Positions 20,748 to 64,000 of a stretch of DNA of 64,000 bases are shown here, in pieces (position 1 is the stretch's first letter; the number at the start of each line of letters is the position of its first letter). The position numbers were made by a program, and so were the translations under genes. The notes under the pieces were generated by a model that ran no database searches, was not told where the DNA came from, and worked only from the letters and a program-made list of their open reading frames with translations. The DNA comes from Escallonia rubra. Its lineage: Eukaryota > Streptophyta > Magnoliopsida > Escalloniales > Escalloniaceae. The stretch is taken from positions 116,581 to 180,580 of the forward strand of contig JAVXUO010001155.1 in the NCBI GenBank assembly GCA_033065855.1, given 5' to 3'.

Positions 20748-20929
20748 TTTATTTTCAATATCAATCCATCAATTATCAATCAAATAACCTAATTAATCAA
20801 AATATTTTATTCTTTTACTTTTTCAGTCATGTTTCATTATTGCGTTAACCTAATTTCAACCCACCATTCAACTAAATCACACATTCGATATCTCAATCCA
20901 ATTGGGTCCCATCCTCCATCAATCTCAAT

Positions 20930-26348: not shown

Positions 26349-27074
26349 TTGAAAGTACTAGCACAAGGCCCTAGTAAACAAACATCTTGGCATGGAGGCT
26401 ATATCATCGATGAGTTTAAGTTTAACACAAAATATAATTATCGGACTAAACAAACCCAAAATAGTGGAGTCTTGCTCAATGGTGACTATTATGATGAGAA
26501 TTGTATGGATTTTTATGGAGAGCTGGATGAGATTGTTGAGCTAACATATCTCGGTAGCCAAAACCGCTTGGTAATGTTCAAGTGTACATGGTTTGATATT
26601 ACATGCAGTAGAGGAATGCGTGTTAGCTCACAAGGGATTGTAGATGTCAATATTAAGTCAAGACTTGCATTAGACGAACCGTTTGTGTTTGCTAGTTAAG
26701 ATGTACGAGCCTTCTACAAGGAAGATGTCGCAAATCCTAAATCTCATTGGTTTACTATTATCAAGTCTAAAAAAATGCCAGTAGCATATGATAGAGAGGT
26801 AGACACCTATCAAGCTGACCAAGCACCTGTCTTGATACTTGTTGAAGTGAACAACAAGGATGACGATCTTCTTCTTCAAACAACACTTCATCTAGAAGAA
26901 GTAGTAGATGATGAAGAGAAAGATATAGAAAGTTTTGAAGATTATGAGGATGAGTCTACTGACGAAGAAGATGAATTACAAGATGAAGGGGACGACGAGT
27001 CTGAAGAAAAAGAGGATGATGAGTCTGAAGATGAAGACGATGATGATTCCCGAAATGAAGATGATGATTTATGA
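26349..27074 (+). pseudogene. CACTA transposase, DUF4216 and acidic C-terminus
   Basis: PSKQTSWHGGYIIDEFKFNT, NSGVLLNGDYYDENCMDFYG and LTYLGSQNRLVMFKCTWFD match DUF4216, the C-terminal domain of plant CACTA transposase proteins. A TAA at 26697-26699 interrupts the frame (a glutamine would be expected there). The same frame then continues with DVRAFYKEDVANPKSHWFTI and an Asp/Glu-rich tail to 27074, which is usual for the family. The in-frame continuation suggests a fairly recent nonsense change. No splice borders were tested beyond this exon. Confidence 0.82.
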
Positions 27075-46314: not shown

Positions 46315-46564
46315 TGTTCCCAACCCATCTTGGTCAGACCCAATGGCCCGCTAGGGGTCCCATTACGCGCGAACACGTCAACATTGTCAACGGTCAATTT
46401 TCCAGCTCATCAAACCGGTCAGTGCCCGCGCACCCAAGACACGTGTTTTTCTCGCTTCACGTGCTTCGTACGCGACTTAGACATTTTTATTTTGCATTGA
46501 CGTCACTCACGCTCGCGCAATCGTCACACCGGAGCAGCAGGGTCAACGGACAAAGGCCTTGGCC

Positions 46565-47290
46565 AACCCCATGGGGTCGGCCTCGGCCTCACCCAAGACC
46601 ATGGGGTCGGCCTCGGCCTCCCATGGGGGTTTGGCCTTGGCCTTTCCCCCCGGTTCTTCACTCTTCGCGCAAAGTCCTTTTTGCACTTTTTCGCCTCGTA
46701 CGTTTCGTACATGACTCTGGCACCTTGTTCATCATGTGGGTACGATTCTTGGTAGCATGCTCATCATAAAAAACCTTTCGGATTCGTCATTGCTTATCAA
46801 AACACCTACCGACGGTGCGCCCGAAGTTCGCAAAAGGAGAAATTGCCTTGGGCTCCGAAAATGGAAGTTGGCCATTTGGCCTTGGCCAACCCCAGGGGGT
46901 CGGCCTCGGCCTTCCCCAGGCCTAGGGGGTCGGCCTCGGCCTCCAGGAGGGGTTGGCCTCGGCCATTTTCCCCCGGTGGTTCACCCCTCCGCGCAAACCC
47001 CTTTTTTCGCACTCTTTTCGCTTCGTACGCTTTGCGCGTGACTTTGACACCTCGTTCGTCATATGGATACGATTCACGTCGACACGCTTGTCATAATGCA
47101 ACTTTCGGATTTGTCTTTGCTCATCAAACCACCTACCGTCGGCGCGCACGAAGTTCGCCAAGAGGGGGGAGTGGCCTTGGGCTCCTTCATGGGAGTTAGC
47201 CATTTGGCATTGGCCAACCCCAGGGGGTCGGCCTCGGCCTTCCCCATGCCTAGGGGGTCGGCCTCGGCCTCCACGAGGGGTTAGCCTTGG
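46565..47290. repeat. GGCCTCGGCC-rich clusters in the 5' LTR
   Basis: The word GGGTCGGCCTCGGCC, often followed by TCACCCAAGACCATG or TTCCCCAGGCCTAGG, recurs in three clusters (46580-46630, 46885-46950, 47225-47290). The core GGCCTCGGCC is near-palindromic. ORFs here on both strands (WPWPTPGGRPRP-like) are composition artefacts. Confidence 0.85.
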
Positions 47291-47631
47291 CCTTCCCCCC
47301 ATTTTGGCCAATGGTCTCCCCTCCCGCGCGCACTTGTTTTCTCGAGTCTTTGCACCTCCGTGATGTTTACGGACGTTCGTACATCAACCTCGCGACGTCC
47401 GTCGTGTATCACCTTACGGACGTTCGTACATCAACCTCGGGACGTCCGTTGTCCATGACCGCACACCGCTTCCGCGATGCCCATCGCCCAAAGTCGCGCG
47501 CTACTGCCGAATGACCCGTCGCCGACAACCGCATACCATCACTCACCAACTTTGTCACTACTACATGTTGCATTCATTATCTTGTTATGACAGGTACACT
47601 TAGCTCATATCCTGTCTTCGAGACACCTAAC

Positions 47632-47835
47632 CCGCGCCCTTGCGCCATTCTCATGACACGTGCCCCGGCACCAAATATTGCTCCGCGACGTTCGTCGCCG
47701 CGCCCTTGCGCCATTCTCATGATACGTGCCCCGGCACCAAATATTGCTCCGCGACGTTCGTCGCCGCGCCCTTGCGCCATTCTCATGATACGTGCCCCGG
47801 CACCAAGTATTGCTCCGCGACGTTCGTCGCCGCGC
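47632..47835 (+). repeat. Three tandem 66-bp units
   Basis: Each contains GCGCCATTCTCATGATACGT, GCCCCGGCACCAAATATTGC and TCCGCGACGTTCGTCGCC. The 3' LTR has a similar block at 62585-62770 with a shortened third unit. Confidence 0.9.
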
Positions 47836-47929
47836 CACTTTCACAACACGTGCCCCAGGCACCAGGTATTGTCTCGTGCTATAAGCATCACGCTCATGCG
47901 CCACAATCATGTTGCATACTACCGGGATG

Positions 47930-48430
47930 GGCTCACAACCTTATAGCCATCGCCGTCTCAATCAAAAGGGGGGCTTCGGCCTCGTACCGGGATGGGCTCA
48001 CAACCTTATAGCCATCGCCGTCTCAATCAAAAGGGGGGCTTCGGCCCCATACCGGGATGGGCTCACAACCTTATAGCCATCGCCGTCTCAATCAAAAGGG
48101 GGGCTTCGGCCTCGTACCGGGATGGGCTCACAACCTTATAGCCATCGCCGTCTCAATCAAAAGGGGGGCTTCGGCCTCGTACCGGGATGGGCTCACAACC
48201 TTATAGCCATCGCCGTCTCAATCAAAAGGGGGGCTTCGGCCTCGTACCGGGATGGGCTCACAACCTTATAGCCATCGCCGTCTCAATCAAAAGGGGGGGG
48301 CTTCGGCCCCCATACCGGGATGGGCTCACAACCTTATAGCCATCGCCGTCTCAATCAAAAAGGGGGGGCTTCGGCCCCCATACCGGGATGGGCTCACAAC
48401 CTCATAGCCATCGCCGTCACAGTCACAAGG
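47930..48430 (+). repeat. Eight tandem ~65-bp units
   Basis: Each begins ACCGGGATGGGCTCACAACC and includes CATCGCCGTCTCAATCAAAA and GGGGGGCTTCGGCC. Unit starts are at about 47930, 47985, 48050, 48115, 48181, 48245, 48313 and 48381. They are directly repeated, without unique spacers, so this is not a CRISPR array. Confidence 0.92.
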
Positions 48431-48883
48431 GGCTCCGGTACGAGGACCCCTCGCCACGGACTTGGAGCGCTGAGCTGCGACCATGTCCACTCACGTTACC
48501 GTCGATCGTCGACATCACCTGGACAATGACCCCCGGGTCACTCCGGGACGGGAGCAGGTCCTCGGAGGGCATCGCGCCTAGTCCGCCTGGCAGTTGGCTA
48601 CAGGGGTAACCCTCACCGCTGTCAGGTTCTCCGCGCGTCTCTTGACGCACCTCATGGGATTCAGTAAGGGCTTGGATTGGTGGCTGGGGCAACGGGCTTA
48701 CTCTGATCATGCTACCGCGGTATGGTCAGTCTTCTCAGACAGGTAGAGCGACGCTGTTTGGGGCAAGCAACGCGAATTTAGGAACCGGCAGTCCAACGGA
48801 GAACCGGCATTTTGGGCCCCCTGGTGACGTGTCACTCCCAGGGAACGACATGTGGCACTTTATGACATAAGCACCCTGTTTCC

Positions 48884-48890
48884 TATAAAT
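48884..48890 (+). promoter_or_regulatory. TATA box of the Tat 5' LTR
   Basis: TATAAATA follows GC-rich U3 sequence and precedes an AT-rich leader about 350 bp before the LTR end. The identical context is kept in the 3' LTR, supporting its role as the pol II promoter for the genomic RNA. Confidence 0.75.
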
Positions 48891-49233
48891 AGTGAACTTT
48901 ACAACTCAAAAAATGACTTTTTGGCTCTTCTTACAAAAATCACTTTCTCACTCTAGAATTTGGGAGCTCTCGGATTCTAGTGAGAGAAACGTAACTTTGG
49001 ACCGTAACTTCGGACCGTAGCATTGGACCCTGACTTGGACTATCGACTGCCGGCCCTTTTCGTCTTAGCTTTGCCTTCGCAGCACTGCCATTCCTCACGG
49101 CCCGTCTGAGAAGCCTTGCCCTCAGCCCTTACTCCGTCTTTGCTGTCTCCCACTTTGCATATTTGGAAGCTGATACGGACTGCAGTCTTTGTGGCACCTC
49201 CACGTAAGTAAGAACCCACTTTCCTTGGCATCA

Positions 49234-49255
49234 TTTTGGCGACTCTGCTGGGGAG
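49234..49255 (+). other. Primer binding site
   Basis: TTTTGGCGACTCTGCTGGGG lies directly after the LTR end. This is where a host tRNA would prime minus-strand DNA synthesis, and the sequence form is typical of Tat/Ogre elements. The tRNA species was not checked. Confidence 0.8.
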
Positions 49256-49300
49256 GTGAGCATCGTACTGCAGTCTTTCTATCCTCCACACTTAATCTCC

Positions 49301-50674
49301 ATGACTAGACAACGAAGAGTTACGAGGGCTGCCAGCCGGGGCCTTATCCATGCCGTTCAAGAAGAGGACCACACAGGTGAACAGGAGGGGACCAGTGCTG
49401 TGCGTCCCCAAGACCAGCCGCAAACTACCGCACCTGACATACAAGTTGCAGTCAACGCGGCCATCCAACAGTTTTCGCCCGCTATAACCACTCTTATGAC
49501 AGCCGTGATGGAAATGCAAAAGTCCATACAGGCGATGGCCTCCCAACAAACCATTGCACCAGTCCAACCCCATGGACCTGAGTTGGCTCTTGACGTTGCT
49601 CAGGCCCCAATGTCGCGACCACCACCGCCTCAATCAACCAGACCATTGGCGGTAGGACTTGCGACATCTTCGCCTCATGCAGCTGCTGCACTACATCCCG
49701 TGATGCCATCACGCCGACCTCAAGCAGACCTTGGACCCGTGCTGCAACAGACCCACCCTGTCCTCGCACCTCGGCGCATGCCGGCGCGAAGCTCGTCTGA
49801 GACCCATGACTCCATTGAGATGGAACCTAACCCTTACTCAACCGAACAACATCAAACCAATGCCCAAGTAGTGGACATGTCTCGCCCAACCACCCATGCC
49901 CATATACAATTACCACCACAAGCCCCTATCATATATCAACCCTCCGTTGCACCTGTCCACCAAGTTGCTCCTTCTGGGGGCTCGGGAGCTCGCGGTATCC
50001 CAGCCAGTCACCACCCTTTAACCGTCCATGACGACCCGTCTCCCAACTATGTCACTCGCTCAGACTTGGAGACACTCATCCATCGCTTGTCACAAAACCC
50101 TACGCCTCATCCCTCTGCCCACCTGACAGGCCATGCCCCATATGTCAATGATATTGCCACCATACCCTATCCCCCGAAGTACAAACAACCAGCCTTTGTG
50201 CTCTTCAACGGACGCGAGGGCAACGCCCGTGAGCATTTGACAAGATTTGCAGGCTTATTGGAGCAGTATGGCCCGGGAGACAGCTTGAAGTTGAGGGAAT
50301 TCCATAAGTCCCTTACAGGCTTGGCCTACACTTGGTACCACCAGATCCCTGCGGGGACTGTCCACGCATGGAACGACATGGTCCAATTGTTCTTAGACAA
50401 GTTCCATTACGAGGCCGAACGTGTGAGTGTTGTTGATATTGCCGGCATTCGCCAGAACCAAGGGGAAGACTTGAATGAGTACGTGCACCGCTTTCATCTC
50501 AAATGCCTTGAGTGCACGGACTTCAGCAAGGACGAGACATTGGTTCCCATATGCATCAAAAACATGACTGATATCTACCGTGTGCATATCGAGAATCTAC
50601 AGTTGAGGTCATGGGGACACCTCAAGGAAACAGCCCGCCGTACTTACGAGACGGTCGGTCATGTCAAGCCATAG
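49301..50674 (+). CDS. gag: Gag polyprotein (capsid), Tat lineage
   Basis: The frame is open from 49256; MTRQRRVTRAASRG at 49301 is the better start because it follows the primer site and leader. After a Gln/Pro-rich N-terminal third comes the retrotransposon gag domain at about residues 290-440 (YPPKYKQPAFVLFNGREGNA, GLAYTWYHQIPAGTVHAWND, FHYEAERVSVVDIAGIRQNQ). Gag forms the particle. The ORF ends at TAG 50672-50674 (VKP stop). The same frame then stays open and supplies the rest of gag, including a zinc-binding-like YCPYHQALGHPLKNC near 50970, and the protease. The stop may be a readthrough site or a nonsense mutation. Confidence 0.88.
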   Translation: MTRQRRVTRAASRGLIHAVQEEDHTGEQEGTSAVRPQDQPQTTAPDIQVAVNAAIQQFSPAITTLMTAVMEMQKSIQAMASQQTIAPVQPHGPELALDVAQAPMSRPPPPQSTRPLAVGLATSSPHAAAALHPVMPSRRPQADLGPVLQQTHPVLAPRRMPARSSSETHDSIEMEPNPYSTEQHQTNAQVVDMSRPTTHAHIQLPPQAPIIYQPSVAPVHQVAPSGGSGARGIPASHHPLTVHDDPSPNYVTRSDLETLIHRLSQNPTPHPSAHLTGHAPYVNDIATIPYPPKYKQPAFVLFNGREGNAREHLTRFAGLLEQYGPGDSLKLREFHKSLTGLAYTWYHQIPAGTVHAWNDMVQLFLDKFHYEAERVSVVDIAGIRQNQGEDLNEYVHRFHLKCLECTDFSKDETLVPICIKNMTDIYRVHIENLQLRSWGHLKETARRTYETVGHVKP

Positions 50675-52132
50675 AGGCCTCGCCCGCAGAATGCGCTACT
50701 GGCCTCAGCTGACACATTCAACAACCAGCGCAACAGCAACAGCACCAGCAACAACAACGTCAGTAATCACACTGGTTTTAAGCGTCAGTTCCCGGATGGG
50801 GACCAACGCTCCGACAAGCGGCGACAGCAGGAGACTCCGCCCGCCTTTCCGTGTGATTTGAATACGGTAAAAGGGCTCCTGACAGAATGGGTTGCCAATG
50901 ATAACAACTTCAAGCTGCCACCTGTGAGGATCCCCATCACAGACGAAGAAAGAACCAGGCCTAACTACTGCCCTTACCACCAGGCCCTTGGACATCCCCT
51001 CAAGAACTGCAATGCATTGCGAGCCATCTTCGCAAGAAAGGTCGCGACGGGCGACCTACAGCTGCGGAAGCATCACGACGTGCGGAAGAACCCGTACCCA
51101 AATCATGGCAACAACAACCGCGAGCATCAGGTGCTCATGGTTACTACCGACCACGTCGAGCCGCACGTCCCCGAAGCTTCTACGGAAGTCTCCCCTATGG
51201 TCACAACTTGTGTACCTTCTACCCCCCAGCCAGCATCCTCAGCTGGACGAATGACGAAGATCAAAGATTTCTTTGATGAAATGGGGTTTTCACCCGCAGC
51301 GCGAACATATCTCTCGGACTGTTTGATCGAGGTCACTACCGGCCTCGGGCCCGAATGCTTCGCCGCCCAGGCCGAGCTCAAACACATCCCTTCCACCGCA
51401 TTCATTTTTTCGGGCGATGACTCACCGCCAATTGAGCATCATAACCGGCCGTTGTACCTTGAGTGCACTGTTAACGGCACCGGCTTTCGTCGCGCCTTGG
51501 TAGACGGCGGCGCCTCGATCAACATCATCCCCTTAATCACTTTGCAGCAGGCCGGTATACCGCCAAGGAGGATCATCCGTGACCCTGTCAAAATCACTGG
51601 CTTCGGGCAAGGCCACCAGTCCACCCTTGGCCACATCACTGTCGACCTCATGGTCGGAACTGTCCGTCGTGACACTACTTTTCACGTGATAGACAGTGAA
51701 TCTTCCTTCCACCTCCTGCTTGGGCGACCCTGGATTCATACCAACAAGGCTGTCCCCTCGACGTACCACCAGTGTGTGAAACTGGTGGCCGGTCCTACAG
51801 GACATGAGGTAGCGGTGACCATCCCCGCGACCAAGGCCCCTTTTGAATGTACCGAGTCTTACTTCGCCGAGGCCTCCTTCTTCACTGAGATTGCTGCTGA
51901 TGGTGAGAATGCTACTCACATTCATTCCACCAAACTACCGGGTTGGGACGAGCTGTGTGGGGACAAGCCCGCCAAGTCCAAAAGAGGGAATGGAAACAAG
52001 GCATCAACCTCGACGGTGCCATCTGTTGTCACGACCAATCCCTCGCCTTCATCCCCCAAGTCCAAGAAACACAAGGTTGAAACCACCTTCCAACGCGTCA
52101 TCAAAGATGGAAGGGTGATCTACCAATTATGA
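50675..52132 (+). CDS. pro: Gag C-terminus and aspartic protease
   Basis: This is in the same frame as gag and as the downstream pol, with no start codon needed if the TAG is read through. It holds the Cys/His motif YCPYHQALGHPLKNC, then the retroviral-type aspartic protease with its active-site motif LVDGGASINIIPLITLQQAG (51496-51555) and the late block FHLLLGRPWIHTNKAVPSTY. The protease cuts the polyprotein into capsid and enzymes. The DGGAS form of the active site is usual for Tat elements. The ORF ends at TGA 52130-52132. An open frame resumes at once and reaches the pol ATG at 52190. Confidence 0.85.
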   Translation, partial: RPRPQNALLASADTFNNQRNSNSTSNNNVSNHTGFKRQFPDGDQRSDKRRQQETPPAFPCDLNTVKGLLTEWVANDNNFKLPPVRIPITDEERTRPNYCPYHQALGHPLKNCNALRAIFARKVATGDLQLRKHHDVRKNPYPNHGNNNREHQVLMVTTDHVEPHVPEASTEVSPMVTTCVPSTPQPASSAGRMTKIKDFFDEMGFSPAARTYLSDCLIEVTTGLGPECFAAQAELKHIPSTAFIFSGDDSPPIEHHNRPLYLECTVNGTGFRRALVDGGASINIIPLITLQQAGIPPRRIIRDPVKITGFGQGHQSTLGHITVDLMVGTVRRDTTFHVIDSESSFHLLLGRPWIHTNKAVPSTYHQCVKLVAGPTGHEVAVTIPATKAPFECTESYFAEASFFTEIAADGENATHIHSTKLPGWDELCGDKPAKSKRGNGNKASTSTVPSVVTTNPSPSSPKSKKHKVETTFQRVIKDGRVIYQL

Positions 52133-52189
52133 CGGTGTTCGGGGGCTCCGGGGGGTTCGCCGCCTAACCCCCTCGACCCCGACCCACTA

Positions 52190-55100
52190 ATGGAAACAGA
52201 GTGGTGTTGTACGGCCGAGCATTGCTTGCCGGACCCTGAGCTCACACCAGGTGCTGCCCCGCCCTGCTATGAAGACGGCCCTCGACCGCAGGCCGAAGAT
52301 CTTGAAGAAATTAACCTGGCTGACCCGGACGAGGAACCTCGACTGACCTACATCGGCACGAAACTCGCCCCGGGACGAAGAGAAGGACTGATTACTCTCC
52401 TCCGCGAATATCGCGACGTATTGGCATGGAGTTACAACGAAATGCCTGGATTGGATCCTGCCTTGGTGACGCACCATCTCAACATTGCTAACGGGTTCAG
52501 CCCTGTTCGACAGCATCCGCGAACCTTCCGCCCCGAGCTCGAACTGAAGATCAAGCAAGAAATTGAACGACTTTTACAAGCTGGTTTCATTGAACCTATC
52601 ACTCATCCTATCTGGTTGGCTAATGTTGTTCCTGTGCAGAAGAAGAACGGCCAAGTCCGCATTTGTATTGATTTTCGGGATCTGAACAAGGCATGCCCCA
52701 AAGACGAGTTCCCGCTGCCCAACATCGACATGCTCACCGAGGCAGCTGCCGGACACGAAACCTTATCTTTCATGGATGGTTTCGCGGGCTACAACCAAAT
52801 CCGGATGAACCCCGACGATTGTGCCAAGACAGCCTTCCGTACCCCTATGGGTAACTTCTGTTGGAAAGTCATGCCCTTCGGCCTTAAGAACGCGGGTGCA
52901 ACATATCAAAGAGCAATGACAGCGATCTTCCATGACATGATACACCGCACAGTGGAAGACTACGTCGACGATCTTATCATCAAATCTAAAAAGGAAAGTG
53001 AACATCTCACGGACCTTCGGGCAGTCTTCGATCGTTGTCGACAATACAACATGCGGATGAATCCGTTGAAATGTGCCTTTGGAGTCTCCTCCGGCAAATT
53101 CCTCGGCTTTTTGGTCAGTCGACAGGGCATTGACATTGACCCTTCTAAGGCCGCCTCTATCCAAGAGATGCCCCCTCCCAAGAGCACCAAACAATTGAAG
53201 AGCTTCCTTGGCAAGATCTCTTACCTTCGCCGATTCATCCCTGCCTTGGCCGAACTCATCACGCCCTTCCAGCACTTGACGCGTAAGAGCGCACCGTGGA
53301 GTTGGCGTGCGCCCCAACAGCAAGCATTCGAACAGATCAAGGCGGTTCTCATGTCGCCGCAGACCATGGTCGTGCCACAACGAGGTATACCACTCTTGCT
53401 TTATTTGACCTCCACGCCCAGGTCCATAGGGGCATTGCTTGCCCAAGAGTTGGATGGGGTGGAGCGCCCGGTTTATTATCTCAGCCGATCAATCAGGGGC
53501 CCCGAAGCCAATTACTCTGAGCTCGAGAAACACTGCTTAGCCTTGGTCTACGCCTCGCAGAAATTCAGACACTACTTCTTGTCACACCAGATCACGCTTG
53601 TCACCAAGGCCGATCCATTACGGTACATGCTCACGCGCCCTGCCCTGTCTGGCCGGCTTACTCGTTGGTTGTTGTTATTGGCCGAGTTCGGCCTGTCCAT
53701 CAAAAACCCTACAGCTTTACGGAGTCAAGCACTCGCGGACCTCTTGGCCTTCTTCCCACGCCAACAATATGAACCGACCTCAGATCAATTGCCTGGGGAA
53801 GAGACGGCCCTGACCTCTGACATTGGTGAATTGTGGACGCTTGAGTTCGACGGCTCAGCCACTAGCAAAGGACCCCATGGAGCTCCCCTCCGGCAGGGGG
53901 GTGCCGGCATTGTCCTTCGAAATTCAGAGGGTGTTACCACATCCCTATCCTTCAAGCTTGCATTCCCGGTGTCTAACAATGAAGCTGAGTATGAGGCACT
54001 TGTCATCGGCCTCATGCTGGCTGCCAGTATGGGGGCTAAGGCATTGTGCGTAAAAGGGGACTCGAACTTGATCATGAAGCAGGCCGACGGGGAGTTCGCA
54101 GTCAAGGAGCCAGCCTTGGCGCCTTATCGTGCCTTGGTGCAATACTTGGAAGGAAGATTTGGCCATATCCAGTACGAACATCATAACAGGTGCCACAACC
54201 GACATGCAGACAGCTTGGCCACGATCGCGTCAAAGATGGAGGTTGATGGTGAGCAGCGAATGCTAACCATCATCAAGAGGACGGAACCGTGCACATCATT
54301 GAACCTAGTCCCGAAGGACATTACTACAGACGATTGGAGGCAACCAATTGTCGACCAACTTAAGGCGCCATCTCTTGCTACCGCATCTACCCTTGCAGAT
54401 TTCTTGATGTTGGGAGACGTCTTGTACAAGCGATGCCCCGGAGGCACTCTGGCCAGGTGCTTGGCACCGGAAGAAGCAAAGCACAAATTACAGTTCGGCC
54501 ATCAGAAGTGTTGTGGCCTCGACGGTCCCCCTTTATACCGTCGCCTCCAGCGTATGGGTCTCTATTGGCCATCCATGGCCAAGGATGCCTCAGACATACA
54601 AGGAGACTGCCCCGAGTGTTCGTACGCACCGGACAATACTGAAGCTCTTGTCATTAACGTCGAAGGTGACTGGCGCCAGCCTTTCATCCAGTACTTATCC
54701 CACGGGGTTCTACCGCCTGACCGCAGCTCGGCACGATCTATCAAGCGCAAGTCGGTCAAGTATTTTGTGACGGAAGGAGAGTTGTTCCGCAAGGGATTTT
54801 CGGGACGCACCCTGCGATGCCTGCAGGGTGCCCAGACAGTCGAGGTGATTAACGAAGTGCATAACGGTGATTGTGGTGAGCATCAAGGCTCTCAGAAGTT
54901 GTATGCAGAGTTGCTAAGGATGGGATACTACTGGCCAACTATGGAATCTGACGCGATCTCTCATGTCCGACACTGCCAACCCTGTCAGAGACACGCCGAC
55001 AGAATGCACACGCCGACGTCCGATCTCCGCATGATCTTAGCCCCTTGGCCATTTCACTCCTGGGCTCTCGACCTCATAGGCCCCATCCACCCAACATCAC

Positions 55101-55906
55101 GGGGTCACACTTGGATCATGGTTGCAACGGAACGTTTCACAAAGTGGGTCGAAGCCATACCTCTACGGCGAGCCACGGGAGGCGCCATCGCCAACTTCTT
55201 GCGCGAACACATCGTCTGTCGCTTTGGTATCCCCCGGTGTATCATATCCGACAACGGCACGCCATTCATCAACAGGGATGTCCGAGCTTTCATGGAAGGA
55301 TACAACATCAACCACGCTACATCCACTCCTTACTACCCACAAGGGAATGGTCAAGCCGAAGCTTCTAACAAAACTCTACTGCGGGTATTATCACGAATGG
55401 TCCATGATGTAAGTGGTTCATGGTCCGAGAAGTTAAGCCTCGCACTTTGGGCCTACAGAACCTCCAAGCATACAGCGACAAAGACCACACCCTTTTCCCT
55501 TGTCTACGGGGACGAGTGTGTCGTACCAGCCGAGATTACAGTCGCATCAGCCAGACTCTCCCTAAGCAGTGGGCTTGGAGAGGAAGAAACCAGAATGACC
55601 GCCCTTGAAGGACTTGATGAAAGGAGAGCCAATGCCTTGCGCCGTATGAAGAAATACCACGAACAACTCACCAAGGCATATGGAAAGACTGTGAAGCAAC
55701 GAACATTCGTCGAGGGCGACCTTGTTCTTCAAGCCGCCAAACATGTACGCGCCAACATGTCAGCCCCCAAGTTCACACCGAATTGGGAAGGACCACTTCA
55801 AGTGCATGAAGCCAGAGACAACGGCTCCTACCTCCTGCTCAACACGGAAGACGGACAAATCACGGCACCTATCAACGGTCGCTATTTGAAGAAGTTTTAT
55901 GCATGA
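52190..55906 (+). CDS. pol: Pol: reverse transcriptase, two RNase H domains, integrase
   Basis: A 1238-codon uninterrupted frame. RT occupies about residues 100-330, with VPVQKKNGQVRICIDFRDLN and the catalytic YVDD at 257-260. The following RNase H-like domain (about 385-500) has LLLYLTSTPRSIGALL where the usual first catalytic Asp is missing. A second, archaeal-type RNase H (about 547-675) has the needed EFDGSA, NNEAEYEAL, GDSNLI and HNRHADSLA motifs. This replacement is the Tat hallmark. Integrase has HNGDCGEHQG...CQPC (about 889-935) and DX35E: D960, D1021, E1057 (ALDLIGPI, ISDNGTPF, GQAEASNK). An extra degenerate zinc-binding module lies at about 764-812. With gag and protease in frame upstream, pol itself looks intact. 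Confidence 0.95.
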   Translation: METEWCCTAEHCLPDPELTPGAAPPCYEDGPRPQAEDLEEINLADPDEEPRLTYIGTKLAPGRREGLITLLREYRDVLAWSYNEMPGLDPALVTHHLNIANGFSPVRQHPRTFRPELELKIKQEIERLLQAGFIEPITHPIWLANVVPVQKKNGQVRICIDFRDLNKACPKDEFPLPNIDMLTEAAAGHETLSFMDGFAGYNQIRMNPDDCAKTAFRTPMGNFCWKVMPFGLKNAGATYQRAMTAIFHDMIHRTVEDYVDDLIIKSKKESEHLTDLRAVFDRCRQYNMRMNPLKCAFGVSSGKFLGFLVSRQGIDIDPSKAASIQEMPPPKSTKQLKSFLGKISYLRRFIPALAELITPFQHLTRKSAPWSWRAPQQQAFEQIKAVLMSPQTMVVPQRGIPLLLYLTSTPRSIGALLAQELDGVERPVYYLSRSIRGPEANYSELEKHCLALVYASQKFRHYFLSHQITLVTKADPLRYMLTRPALSGRLTRWLLLLAEFGLSIKNPTALRSQALADLLAFFPRQQYEPTSDQLPGEETALTSDIGELWTLEFDGSATSKGPHGAPLRQGGAGIVLRNSEGVTTSLSFKLAFPVSNNEAEYEALVIGLMLAASMGAKALCVKGDSNLIMKQADGEFAVKEPALAPYRALVQYLEGRFGHIQYEHHNRCHNRHADSLATIASKMEVDGEQRMLTIIKRTEPCTSLNLVPKDITTDDWRQPIVDQLKAPSLATASTLADFLMLGDVLYKRCPGGTLARCLAPEEAKHKLQFGHQKCCGLDGPPLYRRLQRMGLYWPSMAKDASDIQGDCPECSYAPDNTEALVINVEGDWRQPFIQYLSHGVLPPDRSSARSIKRKSVKYFVTEGELFRKGFSGRTLRCLQGAQTVEVINEVHNGDCGEHQGSQKLYAELLRMGYYWPTMESDAISHVRHCQPCQRHADRMHTPTSDLRMILAPWPFHSWALDLIGPIHPTSRGHTWIMVATERFTKWVEAIPLRRATGGAIANFLREHIVCRFGIPRCIISDNGTPFINRDVRAFMEGYNINHATSTPYYPQGNGQAEASNKTLLRVLSRMVHDVSGSWSEKLSLALWAYRTSKHTATKTTPFSLVYGDECVVPAEITVASARLSLSSGLGEEETRMTALEGLDERRANALRRMKKYHEQLTKAYGKTVKQRTFVEGDLVLQAAKHVRANMSAPKFTPNWEGPLQVHEARDNGSYLLLNTEDGQITAPINGRYLKKFYA

Positions 55907-56346
55907 CCAACAGCGGAGTGTTCCCCCAGCCCTACCCGCCCAAAGCTTAGAACATTTACACAACATTTTTTTGTATATGCACACATGTTCATGACTTGTA
56001 ACTTTTGTTGTTTATTACAAGTTCTTGCTTTCTTCATGTAATGGCATTTTGGCCCAAATACTATCAATGCAAAGATCATTCACTCGCCTCAACTACTGTA
56101 TGTAACGCACTCTTTCATTTACACATCGTTCACTAAGTCGCTTGCTATGGGCGGGGAAGGGGGAACCACAACGGGAGGACACCACATGCAAGACATACGA
56201 GCACATCAAAAGCTAAGCATCACCTCACAACAAACACAGGTACAAAATAACCATACAACTGCTATATCAGTATCAACAAAATGCATACAGGTCACAGGTT
56301 TGTAGGTCGCTACGGACCAATGACTACTAGCAAAATGAAAAGTACA
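55907..56346. other. Spacer where pol and the antisense gene converge
   Basis: The pol stop and the stop of the antisense PMD gene face each other across 440 bp. No ORF of note is present. Both transcripts probably end or overlap here, and overlap could produce double-stranded RNA. Confidence 0.5.
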
Positions 56347-59300
56347 TCACATATAGCGTAAAGAAGTAAGCAGTGCACCAACAGTATCAGAAGTATACGA
56401 CTCCAGAGTCTGTCGCTGCACCTGTAAGTCGGACCATCTCTGCTCCAACTCGGCCCGCTGTCTCTCTATCTCTGCCTGCCGAGCCTCCGCCTCGCTAAGC
56501 CGGGCCCGCATCTCAGAAACCTCTCGCGTCACATCTGTCAACGCCGCATCAAGCATACGCCTACGGCCCTGACACGCCACCTCCTGCGCTCCTACCACAG
56601 TCAGTCCAGCCATGGCCTCAACACTCGGCCCTCTACCTCGGACATAGTCGGACAACCACTCCAACTGGAAGCCAAAAGCTACGAACGACTCGAGCTCTGA
56701 CATAAACTCTGACCTCATCTCTGAACTCCAAGTCGAGGTCGGCACCATACTAAGTGTCGCCAGCCAGTCCACAAGTACGGCAAACATCGCCTTGAACAAT
56801 GCCATGCCCCGCATGGTAATAGAGCCCTCAAATGTCTGGGGTTGTCTCGCCCTAATCATCTCCAACCGCTGGACCACCGCATCAGACAACCCGAGGCCCT
56901 CCCAGGACATACCGTCTGCCTGCCCGACTGAAGACCCGCCACTAGCAGCATCAACCCCTGTCGCCCTACCACCCACTGATCTCATGCCAACGGTGGCAGC
57001 ATGCATCGCCAACAGAGCATCACCCGCATCCACGGCCGACCCCGACAATGTATCCGCTATCGGCTCCACAACAGACGAATCAGGTACACCGCGTCGTGGC
57101 AACGAATCTCTAACCACCGCATGTGTGGTCGGCAACCCGGCATGTGCCCCCGCATGTGCCCACCAATCATCACCCTCAAACGTGTGACCCATCGGGCCAC
57201 CGAATACATCCTCGACCAAGACAGGTGACGGGCTCGAATGACCAACTGGCACGACCGGCTCCACAACATATGCTGCTGTCTGCTCCGGGTGACTGACTGG
57301 CTCCACAATGTAGGCCGCTGCCTGCTCTACCGCCGCGGCCTCCCCGAAGGCCTCACTATCCATCGGCTCCCCCTCATAGGCCGGCTCGGCCTCCATCTCC
57401 TCGACCTCATCGGCCGCATCTACATCTGCCTCCTCATCCTCCTCAGCTGCCTCAAGATCCATCCCCTCAGTATCATCAGTAACGGCCTCGGCATACTCTG
57501 TGGTATCGTCTGACTCCACGTCAATGGCACCACCATCATCATCGAACTCCTGTCAAAAAAAAAAAGGGAACCGAGCATTAGAGAACACTTAACATGATAA
57601 TTGGCAACTGTACAACGAAAGCAAAGCATTACACTAACCTCGGAGTCACACTCCTCCAGCACCTCTCGCGACCTCTTCGGCCTACGTCCACCACCCGTCG
57701 AAGGACCTGCGCCTGTCCGCTGTGCACCCACCATCATACCTACTCTCAATGACGAAATGGGACCCTTGCCAGCACCCGGCACCCTCGGACCACCTGCTGC
57801 TGCCGGCGCCCGTGGCGCGCGTGCTGGCACCGGTTCATCTAATACGCCTGTAAGTAGTACCGACATGCCGTTCTGCCTCGCGACCTGCGCTGTAACAAGT
57901 CCCAGTCCTCTGTCCCCCGCAAAGACATCGACCTCCTGCCTGTCGGATGGCTCCTGCGACAACCACTCCGACCATGTCGCCAGTACCCGATCCCACCATC
58001 GCGCATACTCAACCGTCGCTACTCCCGTCGATAGCGTCCCGGGCCTCCTCCACTCCTCTGTCGGTACCGGCCACTTCCGCGCCCACTTTAAGATCGTATA
58101 CCCAAAAGCCTTCCTCACCTCCCACGCCCTCGTATAGCCACATGGGGGCTCTAAATCATAACCAAAGCTCGAGGACAATCGATCGGGGCTGTATCTCGCC
58201 ACATAATATCTGTTCTCAGCCGGCTTCCCGCCATCATCAGTCAATACGGGTAGCCACCCTGGAAAGTACGCCACTAGTAAGGCCACCGCCGTGTCCGTCA
58301 GCTCATCTCGACCGTGTAGTCGCACCATAGTGTCCTGCAGATCCATCCATGGAGGAGTACCGTACGAATAATGCATGCCGGTATACGCACGGGGAACGCA
58401 CTCATCTCGATCGTCAAAAATGTCTGCCAAATCACGCCCGGGCTTCTTCCCGCCCGCCCAGGCATATACTCGGCCACCTGCGTACCAAGCCGCAACCTCA
58501 CGTGACTTGCCCGGCCGAGTCACCGTAATCATCCGCGGCGACGGATGTACTAAGGGAAGATCACGAGGCCGATAATCCATGTAGACCTCGAATAGATACC
58601 GCTGCAAGAACATCCAGTCTACGTACGTCGTCACCTGATAGCGTCCGTACGACCTCTGTACATCATTGGCAAACTGATCTAGACGAGAGTACTGCGTGCC
58701 TAAGTAAATGGGGGCCAGCCCGACGCGCCCCCCACCAGCCATACGTACAGCCAACTTGAATACCCTCAGGGACACGCCATCCTCCGGCGTCCCCTCAAAT
58801 ACAAACCTACAAGCATAAGAGCATACAATGTCTATCATAACCTTCTCGCCCTATTCTGAACGTAAACTCTGTTGCATGGCAATATGACTACACTATCTTT
58901 CCGACACGTTTTTTTTTTCTCTAAGTACAAAATTTAGCATTCTACGCATACAAGAACAATGGAAGTACAACATGCAACAATACTAAAGGGAAGACATTAT
59001 AAGCACGTACCTCGACAAGAACATGATAAGAAACCCCGCTAGCTCGTATCTCTTGTCCTTATAGCAAGGACCCGCGCGAAAATTGCTCACCGACGCAGAC
59101 TTCTGCCCGGGTAACGCGGTCGCCGTACCATAGAAGTATTTGAGCCACCCGCTGTACGTACCCTTGCGATTGCTCCTTATCAACGAGGCAAACCCCTGCA
59201 GTTCCTTTACCGTCAACCGTTCCGCCGCCGTCAACTCCAGCTCACAAGCATTCTCCGTACCGTGCATGGGCAACCCCGTCAACATCATCACGTCGAGAAG

Positions 59301-60389
59301 CGTTGGCCCAATCTCCCCAAACGCCGTGATGAACGTATGCGTCTGCGAGCTCCATCTCGAAAGCAACAACGCCAAGCCCTTAAAGTCCCTCACCGGATCA
59401 ATCACCTTGAACGTCGCCTCTATCGCAGACACCAATCCCAACGCCTCCAATCTCTCCCCCCAACCCGACTGCTCCAACATATACATGCACCAAAAATTCC
59501 ACCCCACCGGCATGGTATTATGGCCCTTGAACATCACCGGCGACCACGGCACATCTAGTCGTTCCACCAACAAACCCGGCATGTACCTCGGCGACATCAC
59601 CGGAGCGACCCCCCCGCTCGGCGCACGAACATACGGCGAAGGAACCATCGGACTCTCCGCCATCGACGACGCACCGAAAGGACCCAAAAACACATCCGCA
59701 CCCACTCGCTGGCCAAGCTCCCTCCAAAGCTCCTTGGGTGGGCATCCGGGCACCGCCCCCTTCGCCGTCAACAAAATATTGCTGTGGCTTGGCGTTGCAT
59801 CAAAGCTCCTCGCCCTACCAAGGAAGCTCAACGGCACCTCCGCTTCTTCAACCGGCGCGACGTCGTCATCATCAAACATGTCGCCCGGCGCTAACGTTGA
59901 TCGCCCGCTAGCTCCGCCCCGCCGTCGCACACTTTGCTTCTTCCGTGTCTTTTTCGGCAATCCACCAACATTCCCCTTTGCGCCGTGAGAAACATCTCCG
60001 CGCACGCCGTGCCTCCGGTCGGCCTCGGCCTCGGCCTCGGCGGCCTCGGCCTCGGCCCGCGCGGCCTCGGCCCGCGCCTCTCTCTCTTTCCTCCTTTCTT
60101 CCCTCTCCCTCTTCCCTCCTCCTTCCTTCCCCCCTCTTTCTCCTTCCCCTTCCCGCCTCCTTCCTTCCTCTCCTTTCCCCCTCCTCCTTCCTTCCTCTCC
60201 TTTCCCCCTCCTCCTTCCTCCCTCTCCCTTCTCCTCTCCCTCTCCTCCTCTCCCCTTCCCCTCTCCCCTTCTCCCTCTTCCCCTCCCCTTCCTCTCCCCC
60301 CTCCACCGCCCGCGCCGCGCCTCGGCCTCGGCCTCGGCCTTGGTCGGCCTCGGCCACTTGGTCGGCCGGCCCTTGTCGCCCTCCCCCAT
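56347..60389 (-). CDS. Antisense plant mobile domain (PMD) protein, three exons
   Basis: Exons are 60389-59011, 58806-57639 and 57549-56347 on the minus strand. Both introns have GT-AG borders (GTACGTG...TTGTAG, GTTAGTG...TGACAG) and the joins keep frame. The full frame is 1250 codons; its first 170 are low-complexity (Gly/Arg/Glu repeats), so the ATG at 59879 (MFDDDDVAPVEEAEVPLSFL) may be the true start. The PMD is clear: LLSRWSSQTHTFITAFGEIG, PTLLDVMMLTGLPMHG and FVFEGTPEDGVSLRVFKLAV (across the first join). Exon 3 encodes an acidic region and ends in a predicted coiled coil (EAEARQAEIERQRAELEQRW). PMD proteins MAIN and MAIL1 act in the nucleus in transposon silencing and gene expression, and PMDs also occur in transposons. 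What this copy does is unknown. Confidence 0.88.
60060..60310. repeat. Homopurine-homopyrimidine tract
   Basis: About 250 bp of almost pure C and T on the plus strand (TCCTTCCTCTCCTTTCCCCC-like words), purine on the minus strand. It lies in or just upstream of the 5' coding end of the antisense PMD gene. It may be untranslated promoter or leader DNA rather than protein-coding. Such DNA can form triplexes. Confidence 0.85.
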
Positions 60390-61196
60390 CTCCCCTTCCC
60401 TTCACCCCATAGCCACGCCCTCCTCTCCTTCCCCCACACTCGGCCTCGGCCCGGCGGTGTGCCTCGGCCGCCGTCGCGGTTGGCCCATGGCCACCCCTTC
60501 CCCCACTTGCCCCTCCTCTCTTACCTTGTTGCATCCTCTTGGCTTCTTGTGATGTTCTCACTCTCATGGGTCTTCAAGATCCAACTCCTCTTCTTCTTCT
60601 TCTTCCTCTCCTTTCTTTCTCTCCTTTCTCTCTTTAGTTTGGCTAAGTCTTTCTTTCTCTCTCTCCCAAGTCTTGAAAGACTTCCCACCTAATTTTCCCC
60701 CCCAAATCCATCACATCAATTCAAATTCCAAGTTTCCCCCCAAAATCCCCAACAACTCTTTTAGCGTTCCACTTCTTAACGCCGACTTTTTCCAACGCGT
60801 TGTTATTTTAGCAAAACAACATTATTATTTCACATTCATAACCTAACGTCGCTATCAAAATTCTTCGCGCAACCCATCTTCCGCACATTTTTTTGTCGCG
60901 CTATTTTCTTTCTTTCACACTAACATCAACGGACACGCGTGTTACATTTTGTTTTCGCTATTTCTTTCTTTCTCGAGTTCACCGTTACGCTGAGATCGTT
61001 ACCATTTTATTTTCGCAAAAAAAAAAATTTAAAAATTTTGCATATTCCAAGGGAATTCACGCTCCCCCGCGTTTTACGTTACTATAGCGCCCGTCCCTCC
61101 AAATTCGAGCCCGGCACTTTTTTTCATCGATTAATGCTTATGCGTGCGGCGCCCGCTCGGGTTGCCCCTCCGCGCACACCGCACGCAGGGGGCTTA
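60390..61196 (-). promoter_or_regulatory. Upstream region of the antisense PMD gene and purine tract
   Basis: No gene is seen. From 60550 the plus strand is T/C-rich, then AT-rich to 61070, which could hold a minus-strand promoter. A short purine tract AGGGGG (61187-61192) precedes the 3' LTR and would prime plus-strand DNA synthesis. Confidence 0.45.
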
Positions 61197-62825
61197 TGTT
61201 CCCAACCCATCTTGGTCAGACCCAATGGCCCGCTAGGGGTCCCACTACGCGCGAACACGTCAACATTGTCAACGGGCAATTTTCCAGCGCATCAAACCGG
61301 TCAGTGCCCGCGCACCCAAGACACGTGTTTTTCTCGCTTCACGTGCTTCGTGCGCGACTTAGACATTTTTATTTTGCATTGACGTCACTCACGCTAGCGT
61401 AATCGTCACACCAAGATCACCCAAACACCTTACCAAAAATGTCGACCGACGGCGCAACCGGAGCAACAGGGTCAACGGGCAAAGGCCTTGGCCAACCCCA
61501 TGGGGTCGGCCTCGGCCTCACCCAAGACCATGGGGTCGGCCTCGGCCTCACCCAAGGTCATGGGGTCGGCCTCGGCCTCCCATGGGGGTTTGGCCTTGGC
61601 CTTTCCCCCCCGGTTCTTCACTCTTCGCGCAAAGTCCTTTTTGCACTTTTTTCGCTTTGTACGTTTCGTACATGACTCTGGCACCTTGTTCATCATGTGG
61701 GTACGATTCTTGGTAGCATGCTCGTCGCAACACAACTTTCGGATTCGTCATTGCTTATCAAAACACCTACCGACGGTGCGCCCGAAGTTCGCAAAAGGAG
61801 AAATTGCCTTGGGCTCCGAAAATGGAATTTGGCCATTTGGCCTTGGCCAACCTCAGGGGGTCGGCCTCGGCCTTCCCCAGGCCTAGGGGTCGGCCTCGGC
61901 CTCCAGGAGGGGTTGGCCTCGGCCATTTTCCCCCGGTGGTTCACCCCTCCGCGCAAACCCCTTTTTCGCACTCTCTTCGCTTCGTACGCTTTGCGCGTGA
62001 CTTTGACACTTCGTTCGTCATATGGATACGATTCGCATCGACACGCTCGTCGTAACGCAACTTCCGGATTTGCCTTTGCTTATCAAAACACCTACCGTCG
62101 GCGCGCCCGAAGTTCACCGAAGGGGGGAGTGGCCTTGGCCTCCCTTCATGGGAGTTGGCCTTTTACCTTGGCCACCCCCTAGGGTCGGCCTCGGCCTCAC
62201 CAAGGGGTCGGCCTCGGCCTCCCCAGGGGTGGTGGCCTTGGCCTTCCCCCCAATGTTTGGCCTATGGCCTTCCCTCCTGCGCGCACTTGTTTTCCCGAGT
62301 CTTTGCACCTCCGCGATGTTTACGGACGTTCGTACATCAACCTCGCGACGTCCGTCGTGCATCACCTTACGGACGTTCGTACATCAACCTCGCGACGTCC
62401 GTCGTCCATGACCGCACTCCGCTCCCGCGATGCCCGTCACCCAAAGTCGCGCGTTACAGCCGAATGACCCGTCGCCGACGACCGCATACCATCACTCCCA
62501 ACTTTGTCACTACTACATGTTGCATTCATTATCTTGTTATGACAGGTACACTTAGCTCACATCCTGTCTTCAGGACACCCGACGCGCGCCCTTGCGCCAT
62601 TCTCATGATACGTGCCCCGGCACCAAATATTGCTCCGCGACGTTCGTCGCCGCGCCCTCGCGCCATTCTCATGATACGTGCCCCGGCACCAAATATTGCT
62701 CCGCGACGTTCGTCGCCGCGCCATTCTCATGATACGTGCCCCGGCACCAATACGTGTCGCCGCGGCACCAGGTATTGTCTCGTGCTATAAGCACCGCGCT
62801 CATGCGCCACAATCATGTTGCATAC

Positions 62826-63190
62826 TACCGGGATGGGCTCACAACCTTATAGCCATCGCCGTCTCAATCAAAAGGGGGGCTTCGGCCTCGTACCGGGATG
62901 GGCTCACAACCTTATAGCCATCGCCGTCTCAATCAAAAGGGGGGCTTCGGCCTCGTACCGGGATGGGCTCACAACCTTATAGCCATCGCCGTCTCAATCA
63001 AAAGGGGGGCTTCGGCCTCGTACCGGGATGGGCTCACAACCTTATAGCCATCGCCGTCTCAATCAAAAGGGGGGCTTCGGCCTCGTACCGGGATGGGCTC
63101 ACAACCTTATAGCCATCGCCGTCTCAATCAAAAGGGGGCTTCGGCCTCGTACCGGGATGGGCTCACAACCTCATAGCCATCGCCGTCACA
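62826..63190 (+). repeat. Six tandem ~65-bp units in the 3' LTR
   Basis: The same unit as in the 5' LTR (ACCGGGATGGGCTCACAACC start). The difference in copy number between the LTRs shows unequal change since insertion. Confidence 0.9.
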
Positions 63191-63653
63191 GTCACAGGGG
63201 GCTCCGGTACGAGGACCCCTCGCCACGGACTCGGAGCACTGAGCTGCGACCATGTCCACTCACGTTACTGTCGATCGTCGACATCACCAGGACAATGACC
63301 CACGGGTCACTCCGGGACGGGAGCAGGTCCTCGGAGGGCATCGCGCCTAGTCCGCCTGGCAGTTGGCTACAGGGGTAACCCTCACCGCTGTCAGGTTCTC
63401 CGCGCGTCTCTTGACGCGCCTCATGGGATTCAGTAAGGGCTTGGATTGGTGGCTGGGGCAACGGGCTTACTCTGATCATGCTACCGCGGTATGGTCAGTC
63501 TTCTCAGACAGGTAGAGCGACGCTGTGTGGGGCAAGCAACGCGAATTTAGGAACCGGCAGTCCAACGGAGAACCGGTATTTTGGGACCCCCTGGTGACGT
63601 GTCACTCCCAGGGGACGACATGTGGCACTTTATGACATAAGCACCCTGTTTCC

Positions 63654-63660
63654 TATAAAT
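63654..63660 (+). promoter_or_regulatory. TATA box of the Tat 3' LTR
   Basis: TATAAATA in the same context as in the 5' LTR. It could drive transcription outward into the sequence to the right of the window. Confidence 0.7.
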
Positions 63661-64000
63661 AGTGAACTTTACAACTCAAAAAGGGACTTTTGGCTTTTCT
63701 TACAAAAATCACTTTCTCACTCTAGAATTTGGGAGCTCTTGGATTCTAGTGAGAGAAACGTAACTTTGGAAACTTCGGACCGTAGCATTGGACCCTGACT
63801 TGGACTATCGACTGCCGGCCCTTTTCGTCTTAGCTTTGCCTTCGCAGCACTGCCATTCCTCACGGCCCGTCTGAGAAGCCTTGCCCTCAGCCCTTACTCC
63901 GTCTTTGCTGTCTCCCACTTTGTATACTTGGAAGCTGACACGGACTGCAGCCTTTGTGGCACCTCCACGTAAGTACGAACCCACTTTCCTTGGCATCAAA

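Follow-up and report, generated by a model that had tools for sequence, protein, structure and literature searches.

Does an intron-bearing gene that lies inside an LTR retrotransposon, on the strand opposite to gag and pol, serve the element, and if so, since when and in what way? We considered this question for a plant mobile domain (PMD) gene in a 64,000-nucleotide stretch of Escallonia rubra DNA (contig JAVXUO010001155.1; hereafter the window, whose numbering is used throughout) and for its relatives in the host genome.

Gene model and element anatomy

Our analysis confirmed the prediction, put forward in an earlier note, that a Tat-type element (Ty3/gypsy) carries an antisense three-exon PMD gene with canonical GT-AG introns in the region from pol to the 3' LTR. 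On the minus strand, exon 1, whose coding signal is clear over 59011..59962 (Pfam PMD match of 48.5 bits; conservation across copies), is followed by intron 1 (58807..59010; 204 nt, GTACGT...TTGTAG), exon 2 (57639..58806; PMD match of 27 bits by itself), intron 2 (57550..57638; 89 nt, GTTAGT...TGACAG) and exon 3 (56347..57549), which ends in the stop codon TGA. Intron 1 interrupts the PMD domain: the unjoined exons give two partial matches (profile positions 17-115 and 120-193), and the joined exons a single continuous match to PF10536 of 93.6 bits (E 1.7e-26), covering positions 18-193 of 347 and exceeding the curated cut-off of 34.9 bits, which places the product in the family. The introns have a GC content of 36%, against 57-59% in the exons. 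Codon-usage scoring was weak, since the right frame was best on its own strand in all three exons while the opposite strand scored similarly. The acidic stretch and C-terminal heptad-like helix of exon 3, which occurs as two divergent types among copies, were called by eye, with sub-threshold Pfam matches only (E about 0.05). A PDB search gave no match at E 1, and an AlphaFold model of the exon-1 half was set aside (mean pLDDT 31.7).

The earlier note had also called the gene complete. Its exons, introns and stop stand, but the start proposed at ATG 60389 is not settled, and the profile is covered only in the part given above. This ATG lies in a low-complexity purine/GC stretch (59963..60401, minus strand) that continues the same open frame and may be coding or untranslated. 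There is an internal ATG at 59879 within exon 1, and upstream of it, in frame, the window has a basic, NLS-like motif, KKTRKKQSVRRR (59957-59919). Because alignments read by eye show this motif to be kept in either gene type despite many synonymous substitutions, coding seems to extend above ATG 59879. Another possible true N-terminus is the short conserved segment MRVRTSQEAKRMQQ (60525..60567, minus strand), which in the window copy is out of frame with the PMD. Its ATG at 60567 is conserved, but no more than 5 of 35 copies, the window not among them, have it in a frame that runs open into the PMD; which frame it takes seems to be random, frames 0, 1 and 2 occurring 9, 12 and 8 times in a count that leaves out L015 and L024 (placeholder frame) and four more copies without the motif. 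We rejected a spliced 5' exon ending at GTAAGAG after 60567, since this site is absent in L050 and L044 and no conserved acceptor was visible by eye.

The surrounding element was delimited by self-comparison, which yielded a 5' LTR (46315..49233, plus strand; 2919 bp, with tandem arrays and the ends TGTTCCC...GGCATCA) and a 3' LTR (61197..63998, plus strand; 2802 bp). Between them, on the plus strand, lie a gag open segment (49208..50671, stop-to-stop coordinates; Retrotrans_gag, E 1.4e-10), a protease segment in the gag/pol frame with an in-frame stop at each end (50675..52129; Asp_protease_2, E 1.6e-5) and a segment (52133..55903) in which Pfam finds RVT_1, RT_RNaseH, RVT_3, Integrase_H2C2 and rve, in this order. 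A spacer (55907..56346) separates pol from the PMD gene, and a leader (60402..61196, minus strand) separates that gene from the 3' LTR. The leader has conserved blocks in an alignment of 7 copies; from its position it is presumed to hold an antisense promoter and 5' UTR, and its promoter activity is putative.

Elements of the Ogre clade have large LTRs, a tRNA-Arg primer-binding site, and Gag-PROT and RT-INT as two ORFs with an intron between them. The LTRs here reach 2.9 kb. One of the two gag-pol stops of the window marks the border between protease and RT, and is shared with L051, the one other copy in which it could be checked. The order RT (168-326), RH (391-519), RVT_3 (587-697) and integrase (903-1069), that is, two RNase H domains with RVT_3 before integrase, places the element in the Tat lineage of Ty3/gypsy; according to the available sections of PMC6317226, Tat elements have two RNase H domains, the second lying between RH and INT in angiosperm Ogre and Retand. 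The antisense product matches the PMD and has no PF04195 match in Pfam, and both the layout and the 5.3 kb length of the region are in line with Retand. The element is a member of a multi-copy Tat family of Escallonia that is probably Ogre-like.

The two LTRs are 96.1% identical over 2718 aligned columns (K2P 0.040). We rejected the LTR clock as a date: a divergence of 0.040 would give ~2.4 stops and several indels in the PMD coding sequence (our own arithmetic for indels, from 5 events in 1243 columns), and against this expectation PMD and gag-pol are better preserved. Moreover, the two LTRs of the window are less alike over the first 1.1 kb (94.4%) than its 3' LTR and that of L039 (98.1%). 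The contrast drawn earlier between no stops in the PMD gene and two in gag-pol proved weak, since by our own arithmetic 2 per 2230 gag-pol codons predict 0.97 in 1079, with a probability of 0.38 of finding none.

Selection on the PMD gene

Many copies of the family carry the PMD gene. A search of the host genome with exon 1 gave 135 scored matches (of 2417 first-look candidates), 71 of them free of stops and 64 with a stop by our own count. Among 16 further loci chosen from the 135, pol was opposite in orientation to the PMD gene in 15; L041 had no pol within reach, and in L051 pol adjoins via an internal deletion. Splice sites were compared in 43 distinct copies including the window, namely the 30 best-scoring, L042-L044 and L045-L054. 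The donor GT of intron 1 was present in 43/43 and its acceptor AG in 42/43 (exception L023). For intron 2, with L023, L036 and L051 left out because it is truncated or replaced there, the counts were 40/40 and 39/40 (exception L045 as aligned). Such near-complete retention of the splice sites across the copies compared indicates that the introns are old.

Relative to the window, dN/dS in 10 divergent copies was 0.16-0.31 in exon 1, 0.11-0.30 in exon 2 and 0.26-0.46 in exon 3, the highest upper 95% bounds being 0.52, 0.43 and 0.68, respectively, and exon dS among element copies reached 1.1-2.0. Stretches of L042 exon 2 and L044 pol are out of frame; earlier dN/dS values for both are void, and those of a later run were used. 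Such values, well below 1 in all three exons, imply that the PMD protein has been under selection. Of the outcomes that the earlier note had named as refuting, neither an ORF confined to a single family member nor a dN/dS near 1 between divergent copies was observed. On sequence grounds these comparisons show a long-standing protein-coding accessory gene under purifying selection, whose GT-AG introns predict splicing.

An alternative that we hold possible, if rather unlikely, is that the antisense unit acts as RNA, with dsRNA or siRNA tuning or silencing the element and the protein secondary, so that the exchange described below would be an escape from small RNAs. The diversity of the region would fit escape from small RNAs raised against older PMD sequences; as far as the accessible parts of these papers go, tea has 175 PHAS loci at PMD genes (PMC10673657) and a dsRNA role has been proposed for antisense transcripts (PMC7264820). 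Yet amino-acid changes have been selected against in each of the three exons, which shows that the protein counts too. It is improbable that the gene is an ancient, now passive passenger that persists only through a successful element. The stops in 64 of the 135 exon-1 matches favour this, as do the dN/dS values of 0.46-0.80, with wide intervals, in the close copies L040 and L045, although values of this kind are as expected if most inserted copies drift. Against it stand the low dN/dS in the 10 divergent copies and the six head-B copies, in which intron 1 is down to 55-63% identity yet GT and AG are kept in 6/6.

Exchange of the PMD gene between gag-pol lineages

Near-identical pol copies with deeply different PMD genes were unexpected. 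In L048, 838 of 838 pol bases are identical to the window, whereas the PMD gene is ~85% identical in exons 1-2 and 66% in exon 3. Pol identities to the window of 99.4% (L043), 99.8% (L048) and 99.6% (L050) accompany exon 1 identities of 86.7%, 85.8% and 70.8%, and the mismatch recurs in L043, L044, L046, L048, L050 and L052 (pol 97-99.8% identical). Where exon 3 is of type B (8 copies), the three spacer parts keep 92-99% identity to the window, apart from L053 (81-89%) and L051, which is deleted here; in copies with a deeply diverged PMD gene identity drops between about 56,360 and 56,400, the pol side still being similar. Between the window and L044, the PMD gene is flanked on both sides by far less diverged sequence (spacer and pol; distal leader and U3).

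AU tests agree with this picture. Pol data reject both the head split (p 4e-7) and, with one set of identical rows unconstrained, the tail split (p 6e-38), and head data reject the pol group (p 6e-7). A Mantel test between head and pol gave a rho of 0.02, reached in 814 of 2000 permutations. Two results weigh the other way: exon 3 does not reject the head split (p 0.08), and the pol tree is poorly resolved (0/10 inner branches starred). The PMD history thus differs from that of the neighbouring gag-pol, and these comparisons show that the gene has, as far as sequence can tell, been swapped among element lineages. Exon 3 has also been exchanged separately, as L043 and L044 differ by a dS of 1.4-2.2 in exons 1-2 and 0.13 in exon 3. 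We considered and rejected a strict lock between PMD and U3: head, leader and U3 types go together within the recent groups L043-L048 and L044-L050, yet this agreement breaks down at greater depth, the window being closer to L043 than to L044 in the head and farther from it in the leader and U3.

Very probably, the mismatch does not result from assembly joins between repeat copies. The assembly, with 3222 contigs for 566 Mb and a multi-copy family, could invite such joins; however, the mismatch recurs in six copies, the drop falls at one place beside a spacer of only 92-99% identity that could hardly support a false overlap, and copies in which pol has diverged too also exist (L053, 90%; L054, 92% of the last 280 residues). 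A near-uniform gag-pol is combined with no fewer than two head types and two tail types of the PMD gene, deeply diverged and constrained at the amino-acid level. It is conceivable, though we consider it doubtful, that PMD behaves as a set of ancient alleles in one element family, a swappable cassette for identity or counter-silencing; this pattern is what one would expect if rare or mismatched PMD types were favoured, e.g. because they escape PMD-directed small RNAs or a matching host PMD complex.

Origin and relatives

Searches beyond the host genome returned few relatives. With the whole product as query, the protein database yielded none among 7998 candidates scored, and none was found in the viral and prokaryote contigs scanned. 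Region and profile searches of proteins gave two Escallonia proteins, the sole relatives outside the genome search. One of these, P0001, was rejected as independent evidence from another plant, since its residues 1-294 match the host genome at 100%. Placement in PMD-A is decided by grouping with Gypsy PMD-A1/A2 in a PMD tree. The Gypsy location of the window gene fits PMD-A, the clade described as Gypsy-encoded by Ikeda 2017. Other Gypsy/Ogre elements are already known to carry PMDs: the accessible sections of two papers report PMD-A clades as Gypsy-encoded across angiosperms (PMC5418596) and PMD eORFs in 57% of Ogre elements (PMC6317226).

The earlier idea of a captured silencing gene, in the sense of a host MAIN/MAIL-type gene recently taken up by the element, is hardly credible, even though the gene has introns and some members of its domain family are silencing genes of the host: in a BLAST test that left out L002-L004, the window exons had no match at 1e-4 in L001 (the sole genic-looking PMD locus included), L006 or L055 and only stretches of 39-49 residues at 41-46% in L005, L007, L008, L056 and L057, and both the exon dS among copies and the angiosperm-wide Gypsy clades speak for a gene long in the family.

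Proposed mechanism and significance

We favour, with a probability of roughly 0.6, an old, selected and exchanged antisense accessory gene with its own promoter, introns tolerated in antisense, reshuffling by template switching and, much less surely, a regulatory role. The gene would be transcribed from a promoter in the leader; in maize Grande, an accessory gene encoded in antisense is reported to have a promoter of its own and to give a nuclear product (PMC7264820). Its introns would persist since the packaged gag-pol RNA carries them as their reverse complement. Splice sites are kept in copies with exon dS above 1, in agreement with such persistence. New combinations of PMD and gag-pol would result from template switching by reverse transcriptase when RNAs of different lineages are packaged together; recombination is reported within the Onsen family (PMC5668417). 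In the least certain step, which we rate at less than even odds, we tentatively suggest that the putatively nuclear PMD protein controls expression of the element itself or acts against silencing by the host, perhaps in competition with host PMD complexes of the MAIN/MAIL1 type or by mimicry of them; a counter-silencing role for PMD proteins encoded by TEs has been put forward before (PMC8616336). In that case, exchange would renew a component to which host silencing can adapt.

Within a single genome, this family joins a nearly constant gag-pol to several diverged PMD genes that have been under selection, and so provides a natural experiment in which copy number, methylation and small RNAs can be compared between PMD types. 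The role of such antisense genes becomes testable through deep differences between near-identical element copies. The family also suggests that, in plant retrotransposons, single-ORF surveys fail to show how far intron-bearing antisense genes extend; the public gene models closest to it lose their match at the start of intron 1.

Comparison with known systems

Steinbauerova 2011, reportedly a survey of PMD eORFs in Ogre/Tat retrotransposons, lay outside the scope of the literature searched, in the available text of which we found no report of a spliced antisense PMD gene or of its exchange between lineages. MAIN and MAIL proteins are silencing factors that fall in PMD-C in phylogenies and act with PP7L in TE silencing. 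The host PMD-C proteins MAIN, MAIL1, MAIL2 and MAIL3 share the Pfam domain family of the window gene, which is nonetheless distant by BLAST from L001, the only genic-looking locus compared.

The Ogre/Tat PMD eORFs described in the accessible part of PMC6317226 resemble our case in being extra ORFs with a PMD in Tat-lineage elements with long LTRs and a large internal region; that study counted single ORFs with a minimum length of 250 codons, whereas the window gene is predicted to be spliced. Retand-type antisense genes (Grande gene23 and the RIRE2 and Retand TRP28 ORFs) have the same place and orientation, as far as the available texts of PMC7264820 and PMC11963269 describe them. In the latter, TRP28 is found in 97% of clusters and the term "mobile domain" is absent, whereas the window gene encodes a PMD; term searches of both texts as available did not find "intron", whereas the window gene has two. 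The LTRs of those elements have mean lengths of 315-1194 bp, those of the window element a length of about 2.9 kb. The 2020 review itself, in its available part, urges looking at spliced antisense transcripts (PMC7264820). Onsen of Arabidopsis, in the portion of PMC5668417 available, likewise shows pairwise recombination among members of an LTR family, likened there to recombinant retroviruses; unlike in Onsen, the block exchanged here contains an accessory gene under selection, and the types of this gene have diverged far more than the adjoining gag-pol.

Structure of the antisense PMD gene and its host element

The element that carries the PMD gene is bounded by LTRs at 46315-49233 (5') and 61197-63998 (3') and encodes gag, protease, RT, RNase H, a second RNase H and integrase. 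Since the second RNase H is placed between the first RNase H and the integrase, the element falls, on its domain order, in the Tat lineage as an Ogre/Retand type under the rule set out in PMC6317226; its 2.9-kb LTRs and its PMD content would suggest Ogre. The two LTRs differ by a K2P distance of 0.040, and the only two bases seen beyond the 3' LTR are at odds with the 5' flank as a target-site duplication, which together suggests that the element ends have recombined. Elsewhere in the window, long open frames at 18294-20768 (minus strand) and 26316-27071 (plus strand) look, by eye, like DNA-transposon proteins.

The PMD gene is encoded by the minus strand in the region that separates pol, which ends at 55906, from the 3' LTR, which starts at 61197. 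Its three exons are separated by two GT-AG introns, 204 and 89 nt long. Exons 1 and 2 alone give partial matches to Pfam PMD (48.5 and 27 bits respectively), and the joined product gives one continuous match of 93.6 bits, supporting the first exon junction independently of the open frame. The gene proposed in the earlier note is real. GC content is 36% in the introns and 57-59% in the exons. Two public Escallonia models (P0001 and P0002) show similarity to the window gene that ends at the start of intron 1; P0001, an Escallonia rubra protein, is 100% identical to a sequence in the host genome over residues 1-294, which identifies the host as this species or a very close relative. A basic motif that lies in frame immediately above ATG 59879 is kept in both diverged forms of exons 1-2 (head types A, the window's, and B); we labeled it NLS-like by eye, and it fits a nuclear protein. 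We also noted that 5 of 35 copies (L010, L031, L034, L043 and L048) have a conserved MxxRTSQEAKR start in frame with the PMD, separated from it by 221-263 codons of Arg/Gly/Glu/Ala-rich low-complexity sequence.

Distribution, intron retention and selection

Use of exon 1 as a query on the host genome gave 2417 first-look candidates, and 135 matches were scored, establishing that other family members carry the ORF. Their identity ranged from 63 to 100%; 71 had no internal stop and 64 had one or more. Larger stretches were taken around 16 copies, hand-picked to cover the identity range, and in 14 of these pol adjoins the PMD gene in opposite orientation. L051 has a deletion that fuses PMD exon 2 to mid-pol (near residue 488), also in opposite orientation, and has lost exon 3, the spacer and the remainder of pol; L041 has no pol within reach of the stretch examined.

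Splice sites were compared in 43 distinct copies, namely the 30 best-scoring exon-1 matches (the window's included) and L042-L054. Intron 1 has its GT donor in all 43 and its AG acceptor in 42; for intron 2 the figures are 40/40 and 39/40 among copies holding the region. Both intron 1 sites are kept in all six head-B copies (L044 and L050-L054), where identity of the intron to the window falls to 55-63%.

Selection on the gene was likewise borne out, with dN/dS of 0.11-0.46 over the three exons when 10 divergent copies were compared with the window (exon 1, 0.16-0.31; exon 2, 0.11-0.30; exon 3, 0.26-0.46), gap- or stop-bearing codons being skipped. Two close copies gave 0.46-0.80 with wide intervals. 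Four of the 16 copies were left out: L039 (near-identical to the window), L041 and L051 (no exon 3) and L046 (exon 3 and pol broken). As dS between the two head types is 1.1-2.0, the PMD protein has, by these substitution rates, been under selection of long standing.

The earlier note had also contrasted the stop-free PMD gene with gag-pol, which is cut by two in-frame stops at domain borders (50672-50674 and 52130-52132). This contrast carries no weight, since the stop at 52130-52132, where protease meets RT, is shared by L051 and has a TGA-CGG context, a type that PMC11166343 describes as leaky in plant viruses; the other is absent from L051. The shared stop may have a role in the element's protein production.

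Exchange of the PMD gene between element copies

In three copies, L043, L048 and L050, pol (54300-55903) matches the window at 99.4%, 99.8% and 99.6% identity, with L048 identical across 838 pol bases, but exon 1 matches at only 86.7%, 85.8% and 70.8% and exon 3 at 66.3%, 66.2% and 64.7%. All three parts of the spacer (55907-56346, 440 bases) are 92-99% identical to the window in these copies, and identity drops sharply at ∼56,360-56,400, where the PMD coding sequence ends. On the far side, L044 and L050 show 51-62% identity to the window at ∼60000-60450 and 80-87% at 60600-61200; similarity recovers toward the LTR, so that the divergent island in these copies is the gene and its low-complexity front. 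In L043 and L048 the divergence continues through the leader (60402-61196) and U3, and L048 returns to 91-100% identity at 62250-63749, a stretch that is partly tandem arrays. Head, leader and U3 types agree in recent groups (L043-L048, 0.90 and 0.90; L044-L050, 0.95 and 0.92) and do not agree at depth.

Trees of 14 copies disagree between head, exon 3 and pol. AU tests on the pol data rejected the window's head type (p 4e-7) and its exon-3 type (p 6e-38; one identical-row set left free) as single groups, and exons 1-2 rejected a group of the window, L043, L048 and L050 (p 6e-7); head type A as one group was not rejected on exon 3 data (p 0.08). Because the groups were chosen after the identities were known, these p values are only a guide. 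As the near uniformity of pol would lead one to expect, its tree is weakly resolved, and none of the 10 inner branches is starred. Mantel tests gave no relation between head and pol distances (rho 0.02, a value reached in 814 of 2000 permutations), a relation between head and tail (exon 3) distances (rho 0.45; 5/2000) and a weak one between tail and pol distances (rho 0.21; 44/2000). The parts of the gene are themselves mixed: L043, L046 and L048 combine a type-A head with a type-B tail, and L043 differs from L044 by a dS of 1.4-2.2 in exons 1-2 but 0.13 in exon 3.

Other PMD loci and origin of the gene

The host genome also holds a cluster of four single-exon PMD open frames without stops (L001-L004, G000:C922:1276726-1298317; 643-689 aa), which are the best-scoring among the PMD matches listed for this genome and are probably host genes. 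A separate PMD family, found at L055 (G000:C1698) and on many other contigs, has a 468-aa open frame (PMD profile at 12-182) and dozens of near-equal matches, and looks recently amplified; the window element's pol had no match in one 8-kb stretch of this family. Capture from a host silencing gene, as the earlier note proposed, is not shown: Gypsy PMDs are known and old according to PMC5418596, which leaves undecided whether Gypsy or genic PMDs arose first.

Proposed mechanism and comparison with known elements

The mosaics would arise most simply from recombination while co-packaged RNAs are reverse-transcribed; pairwise recombination within a family is reported for Arabidopsis Onsen (PMC5668417). 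Being antisense, the introns would escape removal from the packaged RNA. Counter-silencing by TE-encoded PMD proteins is a published idea (PMC8616336) and not a result of the present analysis. A search of mainly open-access papers turned up neither a retrotransposon with a spliced PMD gene in antisense nor a report of such genes being exchanged, and we claim no priority. By analogy with maize Grande, as described in PMC7264820, the promoter of the PMD gene may lie in the leader. The antisense gene layout of the element is the one described for Retand in PMC11963269.
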